From Chloroflexota bacterium (lineage in GTDB: Bacteria > Chloroflexota > Anaerolineae > DTLA01), in NCBI GenBank assembly GCA_014874485.1, contig JADBJK010000047.1, forward strand, positions 1 to 59,997: 59,997 nucleotides of DNA, read 5' to 3'. Below are positions 9,124-59,905 of this stretch, one piece after another; positions within the stretch are counted from its first letter, which is position 1, and each line of letters begins with the position of its first letter. A program made the position numbers and the translations under genes. The notes under the pieces are model-generated. The model worked only from the letters and a program-made list of their open reading frames with translations. It searched no databases and had not been told where the DNA came from.

Positions 9124-11532
9124 TCATCCTCCATTCGCGGAACGGGATTTGTCGCAGCCCAGGCGCTCAAGGGCCCGACGGATGTTTTCCCGCTCCCTGG
9201 GCTTCTGCGGCCGAAGTCGCAATGCCTCGCTGTAGTGCTCGCAGGCTTCTTGCAAGCGGTTCTGGCGCTCCAACAGTTCACTCGCGTAGAAGTAGTGGAT
9301 GTGGCTATTACCCGAGTCCAACTTCAAGGACTGTTGAAACGCCGCGTCCGCCACCTGAAAGCGCTTAAGGCGAGCCAAGGCTCTCCCTTGTATGCAGTAC
9401 AAAGCCGCGAGAGCCTTGTCGCCGCGAGCCTGTTGCAACGCTCGCTCGGTCATTTCAACGGCGCCTGCGGGGCCCAACTGCAATTCCATGAGGGCCCAGG
9501 CCTGCCAGGTTGGGGCGTTTGTCGGATCGGCCTGGGTGCCTTTCTGGAAGAGTTCGCGGGCCTTGTCTATGTTGCCGCGTTCTTTTTCCATGAGGGCCCA
9601 GGCCTGCCACACTGGAGCATGGCTCGGATCGGCCTGGGTGCCTTTCTGGAAGAGTTCGCGGGCCTTGTCTATGTTGCCGCGTTCTTTTTCCATGAGGGCC
9701 CAGGCCTGCCACACTGGAGCATGGCTCGGATCGGCCTGGGTGCCTTTCTGGAAGAGTTCGCGGGCCTTGTCTATGTTGCCGCGTTCTTTTTCCATGAGGG
9801 CCCAGGCCTGCCAGGTTGGGGCGTTTGTCGGATCGGCCTGGGTGCCTTTCTGGAAGAGTTCGCGGGCCTTGTCTATGTTGCCGCGTTCTTTTTCCATGAG
9901 GGCCCAGGCCTGCCAGGTTGGGGCGTTTGTCGGATCGGCCTGGGTGCCTTTCTGGAAGAGTTCGCGGGCCTTGTCTATGTTGCCGCGTTCTTTTTCCATG
10001 AGGGCCCAGGCCTGCCAGGTTGGGGCGTTTGTCGGATCGGCCTGGGTGCCTTTCTGGAAGAGTTCGCGGGCCTTGTCTATGTTGCCGCGTTCTTTTTCCA
10101 TGAGGGCCCAGGCCTGCCACACTGGAGCATGGCTCGGATCGGCCTGGGTGCCTTTCTGGAAGAGTTCGCGGGCCTTGTCTATGTTGCCGCGTTCTTTTTC
10201 CATGAGGGCCCAGGCCTGCCACACTGGAGCATGGCTCGGATCGGCCTGGGTGCCTTTCTGGAAGAGTTCGCGGGCCGCGGCAAAATCGCCCACCCGCTTC
10301 AAGGCGAGCGGCAGCAGGGTCAGCAACTTGCACTCGGGCAAGTGCGGGTTCTCGCGGAGGCAAACCCCCAGTGTGTCAAACAGCGCGGCATACAGGTACC
10401 GGGATTCCCGCACCCAGCCGTTTCGCTCGGCCAGGGCGAGGACGCGCTCCGCGATGACCGGGTGGCGCGTGTACAGGCGCTCCCCGTAGGCCTCCGTCAT
10501 CTCCAGCAGTTCGCCCTCCAGTGGCCTCAGAATGCGGGGGCCAACGTCGGCCGGGTCCATGCCGAGCGCGCGCGCATACAGCGAGCGAGACAGCCAGTAG
10601 CCAAAGCGGTGAACCGATGCGAGCACTGCGTATGCCTCAACCAGAAAGGATCCGTTATCAAAGCGTTCACGAACCTTCTTGAGGACGCTCTCCACAATGG
10701 CCTCAAAACTGGTTGCGCCGTGTCGTGCCGTCAGCAAGGCGGGCAGCAATTGTCCGTCGGCTTCCAGACGGTGTAGGAAGTGGCGCACCTGGCGCTCGCG
10801 CGGCATGTCCGCCAGCGCGTCAAGTTTCCCCGCAGCATCCAGGCGGTCCAGCAAGTCGTTGACCTCATCGGGTTGCAGCCGCGTGATGGCGAAGGGCTGG
10901 AGTCGGTATATCGCGCGGCGCAACTCCGGTTCAAGTCCGGCGTTGCGCCATTCGTGATGCCTGGATGCGGCAAGTATGGTGTAGGGGATGCCGAATTGGG
11001 TCAGATCGTTGGCAAGCGCAGGCAGGTCTTTCTCCTCATCCGCCTGGTCAAAGCAGATGATGAGCGGCCGGTCATACTCCGCGAAGTCCACCGCAGGCGT
11101 GCTGAAGGCCACACCCGAGTGCCGCCACAAGACAGGGTATCCCGCTTCTGCCAGATCCCAGGCCAGGCGCATCAGAAGGGTGGTCTTGCCCTCGCCCGCA
11201 AGTCCCAGGATGAGTGCCATTCGCTGCGCGGGTAGCGAGGGGTCTTCCACGAATCGGCGTATGTCCTGGTACAGGATGCGGCGGGCGTCCTCGGCTCTTG
11301 CGATGTTCACCCAGTTGGGCGGGGTGCCGTCGTAGAATGATGCAGGGGCACGGCTTGCCAGCACCTCGCGAACCTTCTGGTCCAACACGTGAAACCAGAA
11401 CGCATCGCCCCGGTTGAGAGAGATGAAATTGCTGTCGCCTGTAACAATGAGGGTGCCATTGGCATTGCCAGCCAGGGCTGCGGCGCGGCTGCCCGTGGCG
11501 AGAGCGAACCGCCTTTGCAATTCGGTCATCAT
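9124..11532 (-). CDS. STAND-type P-loop NTPase with near-identical TPR repeats
   Basis: An 802-residue NLR-like protein. The start is ATG 11532 (a second ATG follows at once), with GGAG upstream. Residues 22-40 carry GTLIVTGDSN, the motif also found at the tail of the next gene product. The NTPase domain has Walker A GLAGEGKT (110-117) and Walker B PLIICFD ending at D162. A ~250-residue helical region follows, then about eight TPR-like 34-residue repeats, seven of them nearly identical (MEKERGNIDKARELFQKG). The sensor face varies only at one hexapeptide, SHAPVW or TNAPTW. Two further TPRs close the C-terminus. STAND proteins oligomerise after ligand sensing; defence against phage is a likely role but is unproven. 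It leads a two-gene operon. Confidence 0.85.
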   Translation of the reverse strand: MMTELQRRFALATGSRAAALAGNANGTLIVTGDSNFISLNRGDAFWFHVLDQKVREVLASRAPASFYDGTPPNWVNIARAEDARRILYQDIRRFVEDPSLPAQRMALILGLAGEGKTTLLMRLAWDLAEAGYPVLWRHSGVAFSTPAVDFAEYDRPLIICFDQADEEKDLPALANDLTQFGIPYTILAASRHHEWRNAGLEPELRRAIYRLQPFAITRLQPDEVNDLLDRLDAAGKLDALADMPRERQVRHFLHRLEADGQLLPALLTARHGATSFEAIVESVLKKVRERFDNGSFLVEAYAVLASVHRFGYWLSRSLYARALGMDPADVGPRILRPLEGELLEMTEAYGERLYTRHPVIAERVLALAERNGWVRESRYLYAALFDTLGVCLRENPHLPECKLLTLLPLALKRVGDFAAARELFQKGTQADPSHAPVWQAWALMEKERGNIDKARELFQKGTQADPSHAPVWQAWALMEKERGNIDKARELFQKGTQADPTNAPTWQAWALMEKERGNIDKARELFQKGTQADPTNAPTWQAWALMEKERGNIDKARELFQKGTQADPTNAPTWQAWALMEKERGNIDKARELFQKGTQADPSHAPVWQAWALMEKERGNIDKARELFQKGTQADPSHAPVWQAWALMEKERGNIDKARELFQKGTQADPTNAPTWQAWALMELQLGPAGAVEMTERALQQARGDKALAALYCIQGRALARLKRFQVADAAFQQSLKLDSGNSHIHYFYASELLERQNRLQEACEHYSEALRLRPQKPRERENIRRALERLGCDKSRSANGG
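9487..10276. repeat. 102-bp in-frame tandem repeats encoding TPRs
   Basis: Units start every 102 bp (9487, 9589 and so on to 10201) and encode 34 residues each. Apart from a 16-17 base segment, they look identical by eye. That segment exists in two forms, read along the protein as S S T T T S S T (S = SHAPVW, T = TNAPTW). Such uniformity points to recent unequal crossover or gene conversion. Confidence 0.93.
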
Positions 11533-11558
11533 CGCCCGCTCCGACGTTTGCTGCTCAC

Positions 11559-11587
11559 ATTGTAGCATATTTGCTATGGGGTTTCAA
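11559..11587 (-). promoter_or_regulatory. Promoter of the STAND operon
   Basis: On the minus strand, TTGAAA (11582-11587), 17 bases and TACAAT (11559-11564), followed after 26 bases by the start codon. The spacer is AT-rich compared with the surroundings. Confidence 0.65.
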
Positions 11588-27734: not shown

Positions 27735-28035
27735 TTGTCATTGCGAGCGAAGCGAAGCAATCCCAGGTCCTACTGTCATGCTGAGCGAAGCGAAGCATCA
27801 GCGAAGCGAAGCATCTCGTTGACGAGGTTCTTCGGCGCTTCGCGCCTCAGAATGACAGCCTACCGGGATTGCTTCGGGCGCTCCGCGCCCTCGCAATGAC
27901 AACGCCTGCCTGTCATTGCGAGCGAAGCGAAGCAATCTCGGTTGGCGAGATTGTTCGGCGCTTCGCGCCTCAGAATGACCGTAGGGACAATTCATGAATT
28001 GTCCCTACGGGCGCTCCGCGCCCTCGCAATGACAC
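27735..28035. repeat. Family D repeats (GCGAGCGAAGCGAAGC type)
   Basis: Four interleaved copies of TTGCGAGCGAAGCGAAGCAA or TCATGCTGAGCGAAGCGAAG with GGTTGGCGAGATTCTTCGGC and GGGCGCTCCGCGCCCTCGCA arms. A family P palindrome is inserted in one copy. With 27238-27734, where nothing else is recognised, this fills the 0.8-kb gap beside the orphan response regulator. Confidence 0.85.
27979..28010. repeat. Family P perfect palindrome, core AATTCATGAATT
   Basis: A 32-bp perfect palindrome: CCGTAGGGACAATTCA followed directly by its reverse complement. It interrupts a family D repeat. A 26-bp version of the same core is at 42063-42088, also inside family D. Confidence 0.9.
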
Positions 28036-35574: not shown

Positions 35575-36510
35575 GGCGGGGGCGGGCGTTCGGATCACGA
35601 AAGCCGCGAAAGGGCGCGAAAGGCGCGAAATGGGGGCCGCGCGGGGGTGGCGCGCGGGCCGCGCGGGGCTGAACCCCCGCGCTGAAAGGGCGAAGCCCCG
35701 CTGGGGCTGGGCGCAGCCCGCAGGGCTTTGCCTATTCAGCCCGATGCTTCAGCGTCGGGCGGGGGCGGGCGTTCGGATCACGAAACTCGCGAAAGGGGGC
35801 GAAATGCGCGAAATGGGGGCCGCGCGGGGGCGGCGCGCGGGCCGCGCGGGGCTGAACCCCCGCGCTGAATGAACGAAGCCCCGCTGGGGCTGGGCGCAGC
35901 CCGCAGGGCCTTGCCTATTCAGCCCGATGCTTCAGCGTCGGGCGGGGGCGGGCATTTGGATCACGAAATCCGCGAAAGGGCGCGAAAGGCGCGAAATGGG
36001 AGCCGCGCGGGGTGGCGCGCGGGGGTGAACCCCCGCGCTGAATGAACGAAGCCCCGCCGGGGCTGGGCGCAGCCCGCAGGGCCTTGCCTATTCAGCCCGA
36101 TGCTTCAGCGTCGGGCGGGGGCGGGCAGGCGTTCGGATCGCGAAACTCGCGAAAGGGGGCGAAATGCGCGAAATGGGGGCCGCGCGGGGGTGGCGCGCGG
36201 GGGTGAACCCCCGCGCTGAATGAACGAAGCCCCGCTGGGGCTGGGGCGTGCGTGGGGGGAGGGCCAGGGTGAGGGGCAAACCTGCGACGCACCTCCGAGG
36301 TGCGTCGCAGGTGCAATCTCCGCCCCTACGGGCAGCCCGCAGGCCTTTGTCCCTTCGGCCCGACGGCTTTAGCCGCGGGCGGCGGGACCGCGCGGGGGTG
36401 GCGCGCGGGAGGGCTGGCCCCGCCGTCCCCTCTCCCGCCGGGAGAGGGCTAGGGTGAGGGGCGTTCGGATCACGAAATCCGCAAACCTGCGACGCACCCC
36501 GTAGGCGCGT
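35575..36510. repeat. Large mosaic repeat island (family A in reverse, families E and others)
   Basis: Four tandem ~185-bp blocks (about 35575, 35760, 35945 and 36115). Each holds a CGGATCACGAAAxxCGCGAAAGG tract, a GCGCGGGGCTGAACCCCCGCGC-type hairpin and a family A unit in inverse orientation to that at 75-905. A family E palindrome follows at 36280-36312, then a further unit and a CCCTCTCCC-CCGGGAGAGGG hairpin (about 36418-36450). No gene is supported in the 1.05-kb gap 35486-36536. Confidence 0.85.
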
Positions 36511-46105: not shown

Positions 46106-46429
46106 GGATGCCCTCCCATGATGGAAGATATGATGCCTCGCCGGCGAGATTCCCACCGCCCGGAGCGCGAAGAACACAGCGAGAACGCGAGGTGGATTTC
46201 GGCGCGCTCTGCGGTGATCCTCTCAGCCCATTCGCGCGGCGCAATTATAGCACCCGCGGCGGGGGCGGGCAAACGCTGGCCGCCGGGTCTCGTTTCAACG
46301 CCCGTTGGCGGCACTGTGATTCTGCGCCGCGTCGCAGTGTGCAATCGCGCGGCGGCGCTTGTGCACGGGCGACGCATGCGCCGCCGGTACAGGCCACCAG
46401 CGACGCGCCTCAACGTAACAGTCTTCCCG

Positions 46430-46655
46430 TCCTTGCGAGCGAAGCGAAGCAATCTCACACCCCCGGGGATTGCTTCGGGCGCTACGCGCCCTCGCAATGA
46501 CACTCCCTCCACCGTCCTTGCGAGCGAAGCGAAGCAATCTCACACCCCCGGGGATTGCTTCGGGCGCTGCGCGCCCTCGCGATGACATTTTGTGCGTGTC
46601 GTTGCGAGCGAAGCGAAGCAATCTCACACCCCCGGGGATTGCTTCGGGGGCTGCG
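46430..46655. repeat. Family D repeats, three tandem copies
   Basis: Three ~82-bp copies of GCGAGCGAAGCGAAGCAATC, CACACCCCCGGGGATTGCTT and CGGGCGCTxCGCGCCCTCGC arms, the last one truncated. They lie upstream of the cytochrome promoter and contain no gene. Confidence 0.9.
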
Positions 46656-46713
46656 ATAAGATAGGCAAATGCACCTATTTGGATAAGATATGCAAATAAC
46701 TTGAGCAGGATAC

Positions 46714-51477: not shown

Positions 51478-53199
51478 CTACTTTGCCCTTGCGCGCTTCA
51501 GTTGCGCCCGCATCTCCTCGGCGGGCAGGGTATTCAGGATGTCCTTCGGCTCGGCCCAGCCGCGGCGCGCCGTCGCCACGCCGTAGGTCATGGCGTTCAG
51601 CCCCGCCGGATTGTGCGCGTCGCTGTTGATGGCCAGTTTCACGCCCATGCCGATGGCCCGGCGGATGTGGACATCGTCCAGGTCCAGCCGCAGCGGGATG
51701 GCGTTCACCTCCAGCGCCGTCCCCGTCTCGGCGGCGACCCGCAGCAGTGCCTCCACGTCTATAGCCGTCTCGTCGCGCTGGCCCAGGATGCGCCCCAGCG
51801 GGTGGCCGATGATGTCCACGTACGGGTTCTGCATGGCCCGCACCACCCGCGCCGTGATCTCCTCGCGCGGCTGGCGCAGCCCTGAATGCACCGACGCGAT
51901 GACCACGTCCAACTCGGCCAGCACGTCATCGGGCAGGTCCAGCATGCCGTCGCCGCGAATCTCCACCTCCACGCCCTGCAGGAGCGTGAAGTCGGCGTAC
52001 TCACTGTTGAGACGCTGGATTTCGGCCCGCTGTTCCCGCAGGCGCTCGGCGGTCAGCCCGCGGGCGATGCCCAGGCCCTGGGAGTGGTCCGAAATGACGA
52101 GGTACCGGTACCCCTTGCGGTGGGCGGCCTCGGCCATGACCTCCAGGCTTGCCGCGCCGTCGCTCCACTCGGTGTGGGCGTGCAGGTCGCCCAGGATGTC
52201 GGCCTCCTCCACCAGATGGGGCAGGGTCCCGGCCTGGGCCGCCTCAATCTCGCCGCGGTCCTCGCGCAGTTCCGGCGGAATCCAGGGCAGGCCCAGCGTG
52301 CGGTACACGTCCTCCTCGTCGGGGCACAGAATCTCCTCGTCGCCGCGCTTGAACCCGTACTCGCTGAGGCTCAGGCCCATGTCCTGGGCCAGGCCGCGCA
52401 GGTGGACGTTGTGCTCCTTGCTGCCGGTGAAATACTGGAGCAGCGAGCCGTACCGTTCCACCGGCAGGACGCGCAGGTCCGCTTGGAGCCCGTTACGCAG
52501 GATGACCGAGGTCTTGGTCGGCCCGCTGAGCGAGACCTCGGCGACCATGGGCAGCGCCGCGAAAGCACGCATGACCGGCTCGGGGTCCACGGCAGCCACC
52601 AGCAGATCAATGTCGCCGATGGTGGACTTGCGCCGGCGCAGGCTCCCCGCCGCCGACGCCTTGACGACGCCCGGCGTCTCGGCCAGGGCCGCCAGAATCT
52701 CATCGGCCACGGGCCAGGCGTCGGCCAGGGGGATGCGCCCGCTCCGCCGCCGCAGCCACTCTATGCCCTCCAGAATCTTCTGCTCGGAGCGCGCGCCCAT
52801 GCCCGGCAGGACGCGGATGCGGCCCTCGCGGGCGGCCTGCTCGGCCTCGCCGACGCTGGTGATGCCCAGTTTCTCCCACAGGAGTTTCGCCGTCTTGGGG
52901 CCGACGTCGGGGATGGCGAGAAGGTCCAGGACGCCCATGGGGACCTTCTCCTTGAGCCGCTCGTAGTATTCCAGGCGGCCCGTGGAGAGGAGTTCGGATA
53001 TCTTCTTTTCCATCGCCTCGCCGACGCCTGGGATGGTGCGCAACTCGCCGCGCTTCCAGACTTCGGTGATGGGCTCCGGCAGATGGGCGATCTGGTCGGC
53101 GGCGCGGCGGTAGGCGACCCCCTTGTAGGGGACCTCGCCGAGGATGTCCAGGATGTCGGCGATGCGCTCCAGGATTTCGGCGACCTCGCGATTGTCCAT
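51478..53199 (-). CDS. polX: DNA polymerase/3'-5' exonuclease PolX
   Basis: A 573-residue repair enzyme. The N-terminal half is a family X polymerase: HhH motifs (LRTIPGVGEAMEKKI and LLAIPDVGPKTAKLL), then GSLRRRKSTIGDIDLLVAA with the paired catalytic aspartates. The C-terminal half is a PHP exonuclease domain: DLHAHTEWSDG, ISDHSQGLGIARG, IIGHPLGR and INSDAHNP. Length and order are as in Bacillus and Deinococcus PolX, which act in base-excision repair. Confidence 0.96.
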   Translation of the reverse strand: MDNREVAEILERIADILDILGEVPYKGVAYRRAADQIAHLPEPITEVWKRGELRTIPGVGEAMEKKISELLSTGRLEYYERLKEKVPMGVLDLLAIPDVGPKTAKLLWEKLGITSVGEAEQAAREGRIRVLPGMGARSEQKILEGIEWLRRRSGRIPLADAWPVADEILAALAETPGVVKASAAGSLRRRKSTIGDIDLLVAAVDPEPVMRAFAALPMVAEVSLSGPTKTSVILRNGLQADLRVLPVERYGSLLQYFTGSKEHNVHLRGLAQDMGLSLSEYGFKRGDEEILCPDEEDVYRTLGLPWIPPELREDRGEIEAAQAGTLPHLVEEADILGDLHAHTEWSDGAASLEVMAEAAHRKGYRYLVISDHSQGLGIARGLTAERLREQRAEIQRLNSEYADFTLLQGVEVEIRGDGMLDLPDDVLAELDVVIASVHSGLRQPREEITARVVRAMQNPYVDIIGHPLGRILGQRDETAIDVEALLRVAAETGTALEVNAIPLRLDLDDVHIRRAIGMGVKLAINSDAHNPAGLNAMTYGVATARRGWAEPKDILNTLPAEEMRAQLKRARAK

Positions 53200-53228
53200 G
53201 CCCTTCCCTCACGGACAGTTCTGGGGGA

Positions 53229-53257
53229 ATTATACACCTCGGGGGGGCAGCGTGCAA
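53229..53257 (-). promoter_or_regulatory. Promoter of polX
   Basis: On the minus strand, TTGCAC (53252-53257), 17 bases and TATAAT (53229-53234). The MITE-like element starts 13 bases further upstream. Confidence 0.55.
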
Positions 53258-53270
53258 CCGCCTGTGCGAG

Positions 53271-53499
53271 GGGGTGCATTTCCATTTTGGGGCGAGAGTA
53301 ACCGAATGTCGTTAGGTTGTCGCGCAGAATCTACCTCACCTATCCCCACCCCGGCCCTCCCCTTTCCTCTCCGCCCGCGGAGAGGAAAGGGGAGGGTATG
53401 GGAGGGGTTAGGTGAGGTCAAGCGGCCCCATCGCCCTATGTCGGGTGGCGAAAAAGACTGCCCATTGCAGCAGCCTTGCCCCCGAACTGAAATGCACCC
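53271..53499 (+). mobile_element. MITE-like element, left copy (229 bp)
   Basis: The element is flanked by a 6-bp direct duplication TGCGAG (53265-53270 and 53500-53505). Its ends are imperfect inverted repeats, GGGGTGCATTTCCATTTTGG against GGGTGCATTTCAGTTCGGGG. It contains a 42-bp hairpin with a perfect 20-bp stem (53355-53374 with 53377-53396). It encodes no protein. The copy at 54731 is inverted and differs at about 13 of 225 compared positions. Confidence 0.85.
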
Positions 53500-53559
53500 T
53501 GCGAGGGTATCGCACGTCATTCTGGGGCGCGTAGCGACGAACTTCCCTGTTGCCAAGCA

Positions 53560-54537
53560 CTACCGCAGGCGGGCGAGGATCGCTCCGGGGTTGTCCACTT
53601 CCCCCAGCAGGTCGCGCGAGAACCGCAGCCGGTTGCCGCGGAGGTCCAGTTTTTTCAGATTCCTCAGGTTGGCCAGTTCGCGCGGCACCCAGTGCATCTG
53701 GTTCTCCTGGGCGTTGAGTTCCTCCAGGTTCGCCAGGCGGCCGATCTCCGGCGGCAGCCCGATCAGTTGATTGAACGCGACGACCAGCGTGCGGAGCCGA
53801 GACAGTTGGCCGATTTCGGGCGGCAGCGTCATCAGATCGTTGGCGTACAGGTTGAGCACCTCCAGGCTCGCCAGTCGGCCAATCTCCGGCGGCAGGTCCA
53901 TGAGGATGTTATCCGACACGTCCAGCGTGCGGAGTCGCGACAGGTTCCCGATCTCCGGGGGCAGTTGCCCGAGTCGGTTCTGGCTCAGGTCCAGCGTCTC
54001 CAGGTTCGTGAGATGGCCGATTTCCGGGGGCAGGGTGCTCAAATCGCTTCCGCTTAGGCTCAGGTAGCGCAGCCGGGTCAGGCGGCCAATCTCCGGCGGC
54101 AATGCCGCGATGTGGTTGGCGGTGAGGTCCAGCGTCTCCAAGTTGGCCAGGTTCCCGATTTCGGGCGGCAAGGCCTTCAGCCGATTCACGGCGACGTCCA
54201 GGGTTTTCAGCTGGCCCAGGCGTCCGATTTCCGGCGGCAGCGCGGTGAGGTGGTTGGATACCAGTTTCAGCGTGCGGAGCCGCGACAGTTGGCCGATTTC
54301 GGGCGGCAGTGTTTCCAGTGCGCTGGTCATAACGGACAGGGATTCCAAACTGGCCAGTTGGCCGATTTCCGGCGGCAGCGTCGTCAGGGGATTGCCGCCC
54401 AGATCAAGCGAGCGGAGTTCTGTGAGCCGCGCGATCTGCGGCGGGAGCGCCGTCAGGTCCTTGTAGCCCAAGTCCAGCGAGGCCCAGCGTTTGTCTGCAG
54501 CGCGCTGGAGGAGGGCGAGGAGTTCTTGCTCGTCCAT
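53560..54537 (-). CDS. Leucine-rich repeat protein
   Basis: A 325-residue protein starting at ATG 54537 behind GAGG. After a ~20-residue head (MDEQELLALLQRAADKRW), it consists of about twelve 23-residue LRRs of the bacterial LPPEIGxLxxLxxLDL type, closed by LRGNRLRFSRD. The repeats are very regular at both protein and DNA level. No signal peptide or membrane segment is seen, so it is cytoplasmic. LRR proteins usually bind other proteins. The gene lies alone between two inverted MITE-like elements, which suggests an acquired or mobilised cassette. Confidence 0.88.
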   Translation of the reverse strand: MDEQELLALLQRAADKRWASLDLGYKDLTALPPQIARLTELRSLDLGGNPLTTLPPEIGQLASLESLSVMTSALETLPPEIGQLSRLRTLKLVSNHLTALPPEIGRLGQLKTLDVAVNRLKALPPEIGNLANLETLDLTANHIAALPPEIGRLTRLRYLSLSGSDLSTLPPEIGHLTNLETLDLSQNRLGQLPPEIGNLSRLRTLDVSDNILMDLPPEIGRLASLEVLNLYANDLMTLPPEIGQLSRLRTLVVAFNQLIGLPPEIGRLANLEELNAQENQMHWVPRELANLRNLKKLDLRGNRLRFSRDLLGEVDNPGAILARLR

Positions 54538-54629
54538 TTCCTCAAACCTCCCGCTGTGGTGGACACAGGATAGCACAAGCCGCGCGGGCTTTCAAGGCGC
54601 GAATGGCGATGCGCAGTCCCTTTGCTCTG

Positions 54630-54690
54630 TCGTGCGGAGCCGAAGGGAAGCCTCTCGGTCGGCGAGATTCTTCGCGGCTCAGTCAGAATG
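54630..54690. repeat. Family D copy near the LRR gene
   Basis: GTCGTGCGGAGCCGAAGG, CTCTCGGTCGGCGAGATTCT and TCGCGGCTCAGTCAGAATGA arms, a diverged single copy resembling that at 50150. Confidence 0.7.
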
Positions 54691-54730
54691 ACGGGGAGCG
54701 GCGGCTGCCCGGTCCTGTGCGTGCGAGCGA

Positions 54731-54958
54731 GGGTGCATTTCAGTTTGGGGGCAAGGCTGCTGCAATGGGCAGCCTCTTTCGCCGCCTGACGTAGAGCGAT
54801 GGGGCTGCTTGACCTCACCTAACCCCTCCCACACCCTCCCCTTTCCTCTCCGCGGGCGGAGAGGAAAGGGGAGGGCCGGGGTGGGGATGGGTGAGGTAGA
54901 TTCCGCTCGGCAACCTAACGACATTCGGTTACTCTCGCCCCAAAATGGAAATGCCCCC
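54731..54958 (-). mobile_element. MITE-like element, right copy (228 bp, inverted)
   Basis: The element is flanked by its own 6-bp duplication GAGCGA (54725-54730 and 54959-54964), which differs from the duplication of the left copy, so the two insertions were independent. Its reverse complement matches 53271-53499 with about 94% identity by eye, and most differences are transitions. It has the same terminal inverted repeats and central hairpin. Confidence 0.85.
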
Positions 54959-54971
54959 GAGCGAGCGGCCC

Positions 54972-54999
54972 TTGACGCCGCGCCGGGATGTGCTACACT
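54972..54999 (+). promoter_or_regulatory. Promoter of the charged membrane protein
   Basis: TTGACG (54972-54977), 16 bases and TACACT (54994-54999), directly outside the right MITE-like element. Confidence 0.5.
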
Positions 55000-55051: not shown

Positions 55052-55771
55052 ATGCCCAGCCGTTCCATGACCCGCAAGGAGGAGAAGGAGAAGAAGAAAA
55101 AGGCGCGCGCGGCCTTCCTCCTGTACCTCAAGCGCCTGCGCGCCGCCTGCAAACTCCTCAACACCGCCGACGAATGGTACAGCCTCATGCGCGACTTGGC
55201 CGACCTGCTCCAGGAGTACGCGCCGGTGATTCCCCCCGAGCCCTACGAGCGCATCCAGAGCGCCATGCGGCCCACGGACACGACGCGCAAAGGGCTGAAA
55301 CAGGCCTGCAAGGTGCTGGACATGGAGATTGAGCGCCTGCTGAAGCATTTTCCCGCGGGGCGAGCGGGAGGCAAAATCCTGGCGGGCGCGTTCGTCGCGG
55401 CGGCAGTCATCGTCGGCGCGGCGGTCATCTACGGCGAGGCGACGGCGGTGGACATCACCATCGTCAACGAAGGGTGCAGCACCATCATCCTGCCCGGCAG
55501 CCTGCCGTTCCCCATCCCGGGCGTGAGCCTGCCGTCGGCTCCCATCCCGTCGGGCGGGTCGGGCAGCGTGTCGCTCCCCCGTCTGACCGTGGAGGTGGAC
55601 GCCACAGAGCCTGGCCGGGTGTCCGTAAGCGTGCTGGGTGTTGCTGTGCCCTACAACCTGGGCGGCGACGTGGTCAGCATCCGACTGGACGGGCAAGAAA
55701 TCCTGGGCGAGCGGGTGCGCGCGAAACTCGGCGACCGCAAGTCCCACGAACTGGTGGTGCGTTGCCGGTAA
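55052..55771 (+). CDS. Unknown single-pass membrane protein
   Basis: A 239-residue protein; AAGGAGG precedes ATG 55052. The N-terminus is strongly basic (RKEEKEKKKKAR). Residues ~20-105 are helical and charged. One membrane segment follows (ILAGAFVAAAVIVGAAVIYG, about 109-128). The outer ~110 residues are beta-rich and Gly/Pro/Ser-containing (PFPIPGVSLPSAPIPSGG, then VEVDATEPGRVSVSVLG). No known family is recognised. It is next to the LRR/MITE segment and upstream of the asparaginase gene. Confidence 0.7.
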   Translation: MPSRSMTRKEEKEKKKKARAAFLLYLKRLRAACKLLNTADEWYSLMRDLADLLQEYAPVIPPEPYERIQSAMRPTDTTRKGLKQACKVLDMEIERLLKHFPAGRAGGKILAGAFVAAAVIVGAAVIYGEATAVDITIVNEGCSTIILPGSLPFPIPGVSLPSAPIPSGGSGSVSLPRLTVEVDATEPGRVSVSVLGVAVPYNLGGDVVSIRLDGQEILGERVRAKLGDRKSHELVVRCR

Positions 55772-56939: not shown

Positions 56940-57165
56940 CCACGAATGTCATCGCGAGCGGAGTATCTCGGCTGACGAGATTCCAGCAGCCTAGTCGGTT
57001 CACGTGCGACGCACCTCCGAGGTGCGTCGCACGTACCCTACCGCTCTGTCATTACGAGCGATGCGAAGCAATCTCGGTTGGCGAGATTCTTCGGCGCTCC
57101 GCGCCTTAGAATGACAGGGCACGGGGATTGCTTCGGGCGCTGTGCGCCCTCGCATGACAGATGAT
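56940..57165. repeat. Family D copies with an embedded family E palindrome
   Basis: Two family D arms (GTCATCGCGAGCGGAG to GGCTGACGAGATTC, and ATTACGAGCGATGCGAAGCA to GGCGCTCCGCGCCTTAGAAT) flank a 33-bp family E palindrome at 57002-57034. No gene is seen. Confidence 0.85.
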
Positions 57166-59519: not shown

Positions 59520-59905
59520 GCAAACCTGCGACGCACCTCCGAGGTGCGTCGCAGGTGCAACCCGCGCCAGGGCAGGGTCAGGCGTTCGGATCGCGAAGCC
59601 CGCGAAAGGGGGCGGGGTGGCGACGCGCGGGGCTAAACCCCCGCGCTGAATGGGCGAAGCCCCGATGGGGCTGGGGCAGCCCGCAGGGCTTTGTCCCTTC
59701 AGTCCGACGGCTTCAGCCTCGGGCGGGGTGGGTGTCGCCGCGTGGGGCTAAACCCCCGCGCTGGATGGGCGAAGCCCCGATGGGGCTGGGGCAGCCCGCA
59801 GGGCTTTGTCCCTTCAGTCCGACGGCTTCGGCCTCGGGCGTGTCGCCGCGCGGGGCTAAACCCCCGCGCTGAACGGGCGAAGCCCCGTTGGGGCTGGGGT
59901 GCGCC
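59520..59905. repeat. Mosaic repeat island (family E, then inverse family A)
   Basis: A family E palindrome occupies 59524-59556 (ACCTGCGACGCACCTC, one C, then its reverse complement). A CGTTCGGATCGCGAAGCCCG tract and three inverse family A units follow (GCGGGGCTAAACCCCCGCGC hairpins near 59627, 59741 and 59850; spacing ~112 bp). Confidence 0.85.

Follow-up and report, generated by a model that had tools for sequence, protein, structure and literature searches.

The two 228-bp elements that face each other across a leucine-rich-repeat (LRR) gene in the window (the whole 59,997-nucleotide stretch of Chloroflexota contig JADBJK010000047.1 that was analysed) are copies of a MITE family. The family was in all likelihood moved in trans by an ISKra4-family transposase, and the pair would represent two independent promoter-directed landings (probability roughly 0.9). 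According to this reading, an ISKra4-family (p-MULT 4, Mutator-like DDE) transposase would act in trans on the MITE and insert its substrates ~14–17 bp upstream of the -35 box of sigma-A-type promoters. It would generate 8–9-bp target duplications and favour one element end beside the promoter. The two copies would have been inserted independently, in the preferred orientation, at the outward-pointing promoters of polX and of a gene for a 239-aa protein, and the LRR gene would merely be located between the two landings. The source element would have been lost from the genome, or would be missing from its assembly. The features of the locus are the following.

51478–53199, minus strand: polX, encoding DNA polymerase/3'-5' exonuclease PolX, 573 aa (NF006375, 549 bits), the target gene of the left copy
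53229–53257, minus strand: predicted polX promoter, -35 TTGCAC at 53252–53257, -10 TATAAT at 53229–53234, spacer 17, 14 nt from the MITE
53265–53271, no strand: target duplication TGCGAGG, outer side of the left copy
53272–53499, plus strand: left MITE copy, 228 bp, left end toward the polX promoter
53272–53296, plus strand: left TIR of the left copy, 80% complementary over 25 nt
53333–53418, plus strand: central 86-bp palindrome of the left copy (42-nt arms, 2-nt loop)
53475–53499, minus strand: right TIR of the left copy
53500–53506, no strand: target duplication TGCGAGG, inner side of the left copy
53560–54537, minus strand: LRR gene, 325 aa from ATG, between the MITE copies
54567–54595, minus strand: putative own promoter of the LRR gene, read from the sequence, -35 TTGAAA at 54590–54595, -10 TATCCT at 54567–54572, spacer 17
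54725–54730, no strand: target duplication GAGCGA, inner side of the right copy (7–8 bp if the edges are shifted)
54731–54958, minus strand: right MITE copy, 228 bp, inverted, left end (54958) toward the promoter of the gene at 55052
54812–54897, minus strand: central 86-bp palindrome of the right copy
54959–54964, no strand: target duplication GAGCGA, outer side of the right copy
54972–54999, plus strand: predicted promoter of the 239-aa gene, -35 TTGACG at 54972–54977, -10 TACACT at 54994–54999, spacer 16, 13 nt from the MITE
55052–55771, plus strand: 239-aa gene, function unassigned (MPSRSMTRKEEK...), the target gene of the right copy, with a 239-aa orthologue in the congener G002

The locus contains an inverted repeat of 229 nt, 94% complementary, whose arms (53272–53500 and 54730–54958) are separated by 1229 nt. 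As the first-pass annotation had described, two elements about 94% alike face each other here with imperfect terminal inverted repeats. It gave their lengths as 229 and 228 bp; both are 228 bp (GGGTGC...GCACCC). The terminal repeats of each copy are 25 nt long, imperfect (80% alike) and start with GGGTGCATTTC. One end of the right copy starts with GGGGGCATTTC, and GCCCCC is the reading at the promoter-facing end of this copy. In the center of each copy is an 86-bp palindrome, composed of 42+42-nt hairpin arms and a 2-nt loop. The left copy is bounded on both sides by TGCGAGG, an exact 7-bp duplication, and not by a 6-bp one as had been proposed. The right copy is bounded on both sides by the 6-bp GAGCGA that had been proposed, which lies within a GAGCGAGC run and extends to 7–8 bp with shifted edges. 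Since each copy has its own matching duplication, the earlier proposal of two independent insertions holds.

The host genome (3.74 Mb in 122 contigs, completeness 95.7%) contains at least 40 two-ended copies, far more than chance would give, and their boundaries are identical to the ends that had been proposed from the pair. Forty of these, including degenerate ones, were collected and aligned, and several further ones end at contig breaks. The TIR-bearing contig ends that were inspected lead into the MITE rather than an IS, and the element accounts for the frequent contig ends of the assembly inside the MITE. By length, the copies form two main classes (228 and about 267 bp), and the longer one contains a ~39-bp insert near the right end. 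Exact 7–9-bp duplications are seen at 22 of the 40 copies (7 bp, n = 8; 8 bp, n = 9; 9 bp, n = 5), against 0.02 expected (null mean, flanks re-paired at random). A fixed length of 6 bp, as originally thought, is thus not characteristic of the family, whose duplications are mostly 7–9 bp. No transposase gene is found inside the MITE copies, and Rfam yielded no match. A 3.3-kb pair of TIRs on contig C79 does not qualify as an autonomous element, as a regular MITE copy makes up its right part.

The congener G002 holds only a few copies, and the congener G001 contains zero with these ends. Orthologous sites were read in about 1.28 Mb of G002. Here, the site of one copy (L016) is a clean empty site in which the target is present once, and the site of another (L019) is an empty site of equal length, which provides the empty sites that the first-pass annotation had proposed to look for. 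The promoters beside three further copies (L008, L020, and L026) are also present in G002 without the element. These facts indicate that the family spread, at least in part, after the species parted. The element is short and non-coding, has TIRs, target duplications, empty sites and dispersed copies with the same boundaries, and shares its ends with an autonomous element; it is a MITE. The MITE-like and non-autonomous nature suspected at first is supported.

The family that had been left unassigned could be recognized from its ends and target duplications, which match those of an ISKra4-family IS. The TIR pattern GGGTGCATTTCNRTTTNGGGGC was scanned across 84,980 prokaryote genomes, and 85 stretches matched, nearly all titled Chloroflexota. 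One match (L143, JAUWYN010000021.1) is in a MAG titled Hadesarchaea, and might be a mis-binned Chloroflexota contig. Another (L097:4571–6095) spans 1525 bp and carries the same ends, which agree with each other at 23 of 24 nt. Two ORFs in this element match NF033572 (ISKra4-family transposase; 3.5e-10 and 8.2e-55), each scoring below the whole-protein cut-off of the model, as expected of a split gene. Based on the split into two ORFs and a short internal duplication, this transposase copy is probably inactive. Eighteen other TIR ends adjoin C-terminal fragments of NF033572-type transposases in other Chloroflexota. A related element in G031 retains a 459-aa open frame and has a 9-bp duplication, CACCGTTCA, at its flanks.

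These characteristics fit the published superfamily, in which direct repeats are 8 or 9 bp and terminal repeats 18–39 bp (Guerillot et al. 2014, PMC3942029). Its p-MULT 4 elements are known from Chloroflexi. The ISKra4 IS and the MITE are alike in the GGGTGCATTTC start of the TIR (L097), in the 8–9-bp duplications and in the insertion upstream of promoters. They differ in that the MITE has no transposase, is only 228 or about 267 bp long and contains a hairpin with 42-bp arms. The MITE itself is not a member of ISKra4, as it has no transposase; it is a derivative or satellite of that family. A transposase gene with the same ends, whose existence had been raised as a check, is thus present in other Chloroflexota (L097) and not found in the MITE's own host assembly. 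Neither there nor in the two congeners did protein and family-model searches recover an ISKra4-family transposase, and we therefore infer the partner enzyme from other genomes. The absence is weak evidence, because assemblies of this kind readily lose ISs present in multiple copies. In common with bacterial MITEs in general (PMC10969869), the element is short and non-coding, has TIRs and duplications, reaches tens of copies and lacks a transposase. In the openly licensed papers searched, there is no earlier report of an ISKra4-derived or promoter-directed MITE, and nothing specific was found on MITEs in Chloroflexi.

The target sites also link the MITE to this family. Several ISKra4-group elements insert 13–17 bp from sigma-A promoters, and in the superfamily the asymmetry of the ends fixes the orientation of insertion (Guerillot et al. 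2014, PMC3942029). Promoters were scored here as at least 8 of 12 matches to TTGACA plus TATAAT with a spacer of 16–18 and the -35 start 12–18 nt beyond the element end; they are sequence predictions of the sigma-A type, not mapped transcripts. By this score, 36 of the 40 copies have a predicted promoter at one or both ends. The promoter is at the left end only in 26 copies, at the right end only in six and at both ends in four (30 left and 10 right ends in total), so copies with a single promoter end show a 26:6 bias toward the left end. Shuffled flanks, with a slightly wider distance range, give means of ~0.8/39 on the left and ~0.6/40 on the right. The distance from the MITE end to the -35 box is mostly 14–17 nt. 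In the profile of the left end, 30 promoters fall in the 14–20 bin, five in the 7–13 bin and 0–2 out of 40 in each of the other 7-nt bins. The control with promoters in the opposite direction yields 1/40. No good promoter match is seen for four copies; for two of these (L016 and L019), weaker promoters can be recognized by eye.

The same distance is seen outside the host genome. A promoter is found there at 14 of the 18 transposase-linked TIR ends, and at 35 of all 86 same-TIR ends outside the host genome, compared with 4.9 in shuffles. The MITE and the IS have their ends, duplication length and target rule in common.

As a rule, small elements persist in the intergenic parts of bacterial genomes. 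Random insertion followed by selection sparing only intergenic copies might thus mimic an association with promoters. Such selection would not yield a distance ruler, and what is observed is a narrow window for the -35 box (mostly 14–17 nt), few promoters elsewhere and the 26:6 bias between ends. The recurrence of this distance at transposase-linked ends and in the published family (PMC3942029) makes selection alone barely credible as the explanation, and insertion directed by the transposase accounts for the pattern much better.

Promoter-directed insertion has already been published for ISKra4/ISLre2/TnGBS transposases (PMC3942029), and it is seen here for a MITE. TnGBS/ISLre2 (p-MULT 3, PMC3942029) resemble the MITE in targeting sites 15–17 bp upstream of promoters with one preferred end. 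Unlike the MITE, they belong to another transposase lineage and are autonomous ICEs and ISs, mainly in Firmicutes. For other bacterial MITEs (PMC10969869), promoter-directed insertion was not found in the papers searched. Few bacterial transposases are specific for sites adjacent to promoters, and this specificity is not well understood. That a 228-bp MITE keeps this specificity suggests that TIR sequences and a transposase acting in trans are enough for targeting. The MITE is a small substrate for testing how promoters are recognized by the transposase, for example via the RNA polymerase holoenzyme. It is also a natural promoter marker in an uncultured bacterial group.

Both copies of the pair obey the rule through the preferred left end, which is 14 nt from the predicted promoter of polX and 13 nt from that of the 239-aa gene. 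The copies face each other because the two target promoters point away from each other. Both promoters are conserved without a MITE in G001 and G002. The ORF that holds the 239-aa gene (55052–55771) has no Pfam or NCBIfam match.

The first-pass annotation raised the possibility that the pair could mobilize the gene as a composite unit. If so, the two MITEs would have brought the LRR gene to the site together. Neither congener has the LRR gene, and synteny breaks at this locus: in G001 and G002, different genes adjoin polX and the 239-aa gene. Besides, composites bounded by MITEs do exist for Tn3-type TIMEs (PMC13367494), and in TIME-COMP, as in this pair, two MITEs in direct or inverted orientation bound a gene. 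However, a composite insertion would generate one shared duplication, at the outermost ends only. In this pair, the duplications on the outer and inner sides match within each copy (TGCGAGG left, GAGCGA right), which, unlike in TIME-COMP, leaves no sign of joint movement. The facing orientation is already accounted for by the promoters. A composite origin is therefore extremely unlikely, and this part of the earlier proposal finds no support; two separate, promoter-directed insertions are favored. The MITEs give no explanation for the arrival of the LRR gene at this locus. No MITE adjoins the putative promoter of the LRR gene, and the gene probably just lies between the copies and is not part of the element.

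It had also been suggested that recombination between the copies could invert the 1.2-kb interior. Such an interior might act as a switch. Inverted repeats of 228 bp with 94% similarity and a separation of 1.2 kb could undergo homologous recombination. An inversion would leave the duplications unmatched, and both are still matched. Their integrity at each copy indicates that the orientation of insertion has been retained, or that the number of flips was even. The flanking promoters point outward, so a flip would switch nothing on from outside. The suggestion finds no support in these observations, and an inverting switch is quite improbable.

The surroundings of polX vary among the genomes compared. 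Its upstream neighbour differs among all three congeneric genomes (L228, L313, and 53199–53260 of the window). In G001, polX has a divergent gene beside it; the probable orthologue of this gene is found in G000 beside a MITE where contig C93 ends.

Sequence comparison of the copies reveals that the 86-bp core is more conserved than the rest of the element. It diverges by 3.8% on average between copies, about four times less than the sequence outside it (16.1%). It can be speculated that co-option has turned the MITEs into upstream regulatory elements or insulators of the adjoining genes. The strong conservation of the hairpin core (mean divergence 0.038 versus 0.161 outside) would agree with such a role, as would the position directly upstream of the -35 boxes, where the element replaces the upstream control regions. 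Insertion specificity alone suffices for this position, however, and no individual site is conserved across species among the sites examined. Co-option is unlikely on balance, and promoter-directed insertion remains the preferred explanation for where the copies are found.

In relatives, among them G001 and G007, the palindrome is also found lacking the GGGTGCATTTC ends. In G007 (L073 and L086), which belongs to another family of the class, it is located between quite different ends, TCGACATTGTTA..., and these candidate ends of the hairpin repeats show no clear duplication. Judged from these sequences, the palindrome looks like a module that predates the MITE or is independent of it, and that is common to different repeat elements.

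The occurrence of the palindrome without these ends, together with Y1_Tnp matches in the host genome, could be taken to mean that a Y1 (RAYT) transposase mobilized the element as a REP/REPIN-like palindrome, with the ends being secondary. Next to one MITE copy without its right part (L320, G000:C95:38400–39000), there is a fragment that reads VMPNHVHGVIVI in a by-eye translation. We take this fragment to resemble a motif of Y1/RAYT transposases, and count it for the same idea. To our knowledge, Y1 transposition generates no 8–9-bp duplication and does not need long terminal repeats. The MITE copies have both 7–9-bp duplications and long terminal repeats, making a REP/REPIN-like nature of the element highly improbable, and mobilization by an ISKra4-family transposase is favored. 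The palindrome itself may still be of Y1/RAYT origin.

The two-base loop of the palindrome is CC in 18 of 38 copies and GG in 14. On a tree of the outer sequences, the loop states need 17 changes by parsimony, compared with a mean of 16.1 for shuffled states. In three of the 38 copies (L016, L053, and L055), the whole 86-bp core is reversed. The toggling between CC and GG without phylogenetic signal and the reversed cores could be explained by recurrent inversion of the extruded palindrome, or else by mis-assembly, as short-read assembly of a near-identical 86-bp palindrome could scramble the loop states between copies. It is conceivable, though doubtful, that extrusion and inversion of the palindrome take place in vivo at dozens of promoters, ~15 bp upstream of them. 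If this is true, a structure that flips would sit at each tagged promoter and might influence its upstream control or read-through transcription.

The window contains several other repeats. GTCATTCTG pieces are found at both inner sides of the MITE pair and are related to repeats of the CATTGCGAGCGAAGCGAAGCAATC... type at 27910–27979, 46427–46671 and 57046–57115. Palindromic repeats of about CTGCGACGCACCTCCGAGGTGCGTCGCAG are seen eight times in the window (16968, 17202, 36276, 36481, 42153, 42389, 56998, and 59520). Clustered CCAGCCCCAACGGGGCTTCG...CAGCGCGGGGGTTCAGCCCCGCGC repeats are located at 104–834, 35646–36294, 59610–59899 and other positions, and those at the start of the window form tandem-like arrays with a unit of ~111 bp. 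An 814-aa protein is encoded at 9124–11568 on the minus strand, and its N-terminal part is P-loop NTPase-like by eye. It contains approximately eight near-identical 34-aa TPR-like repeats (102-bp units), which suggests a recent expansion.
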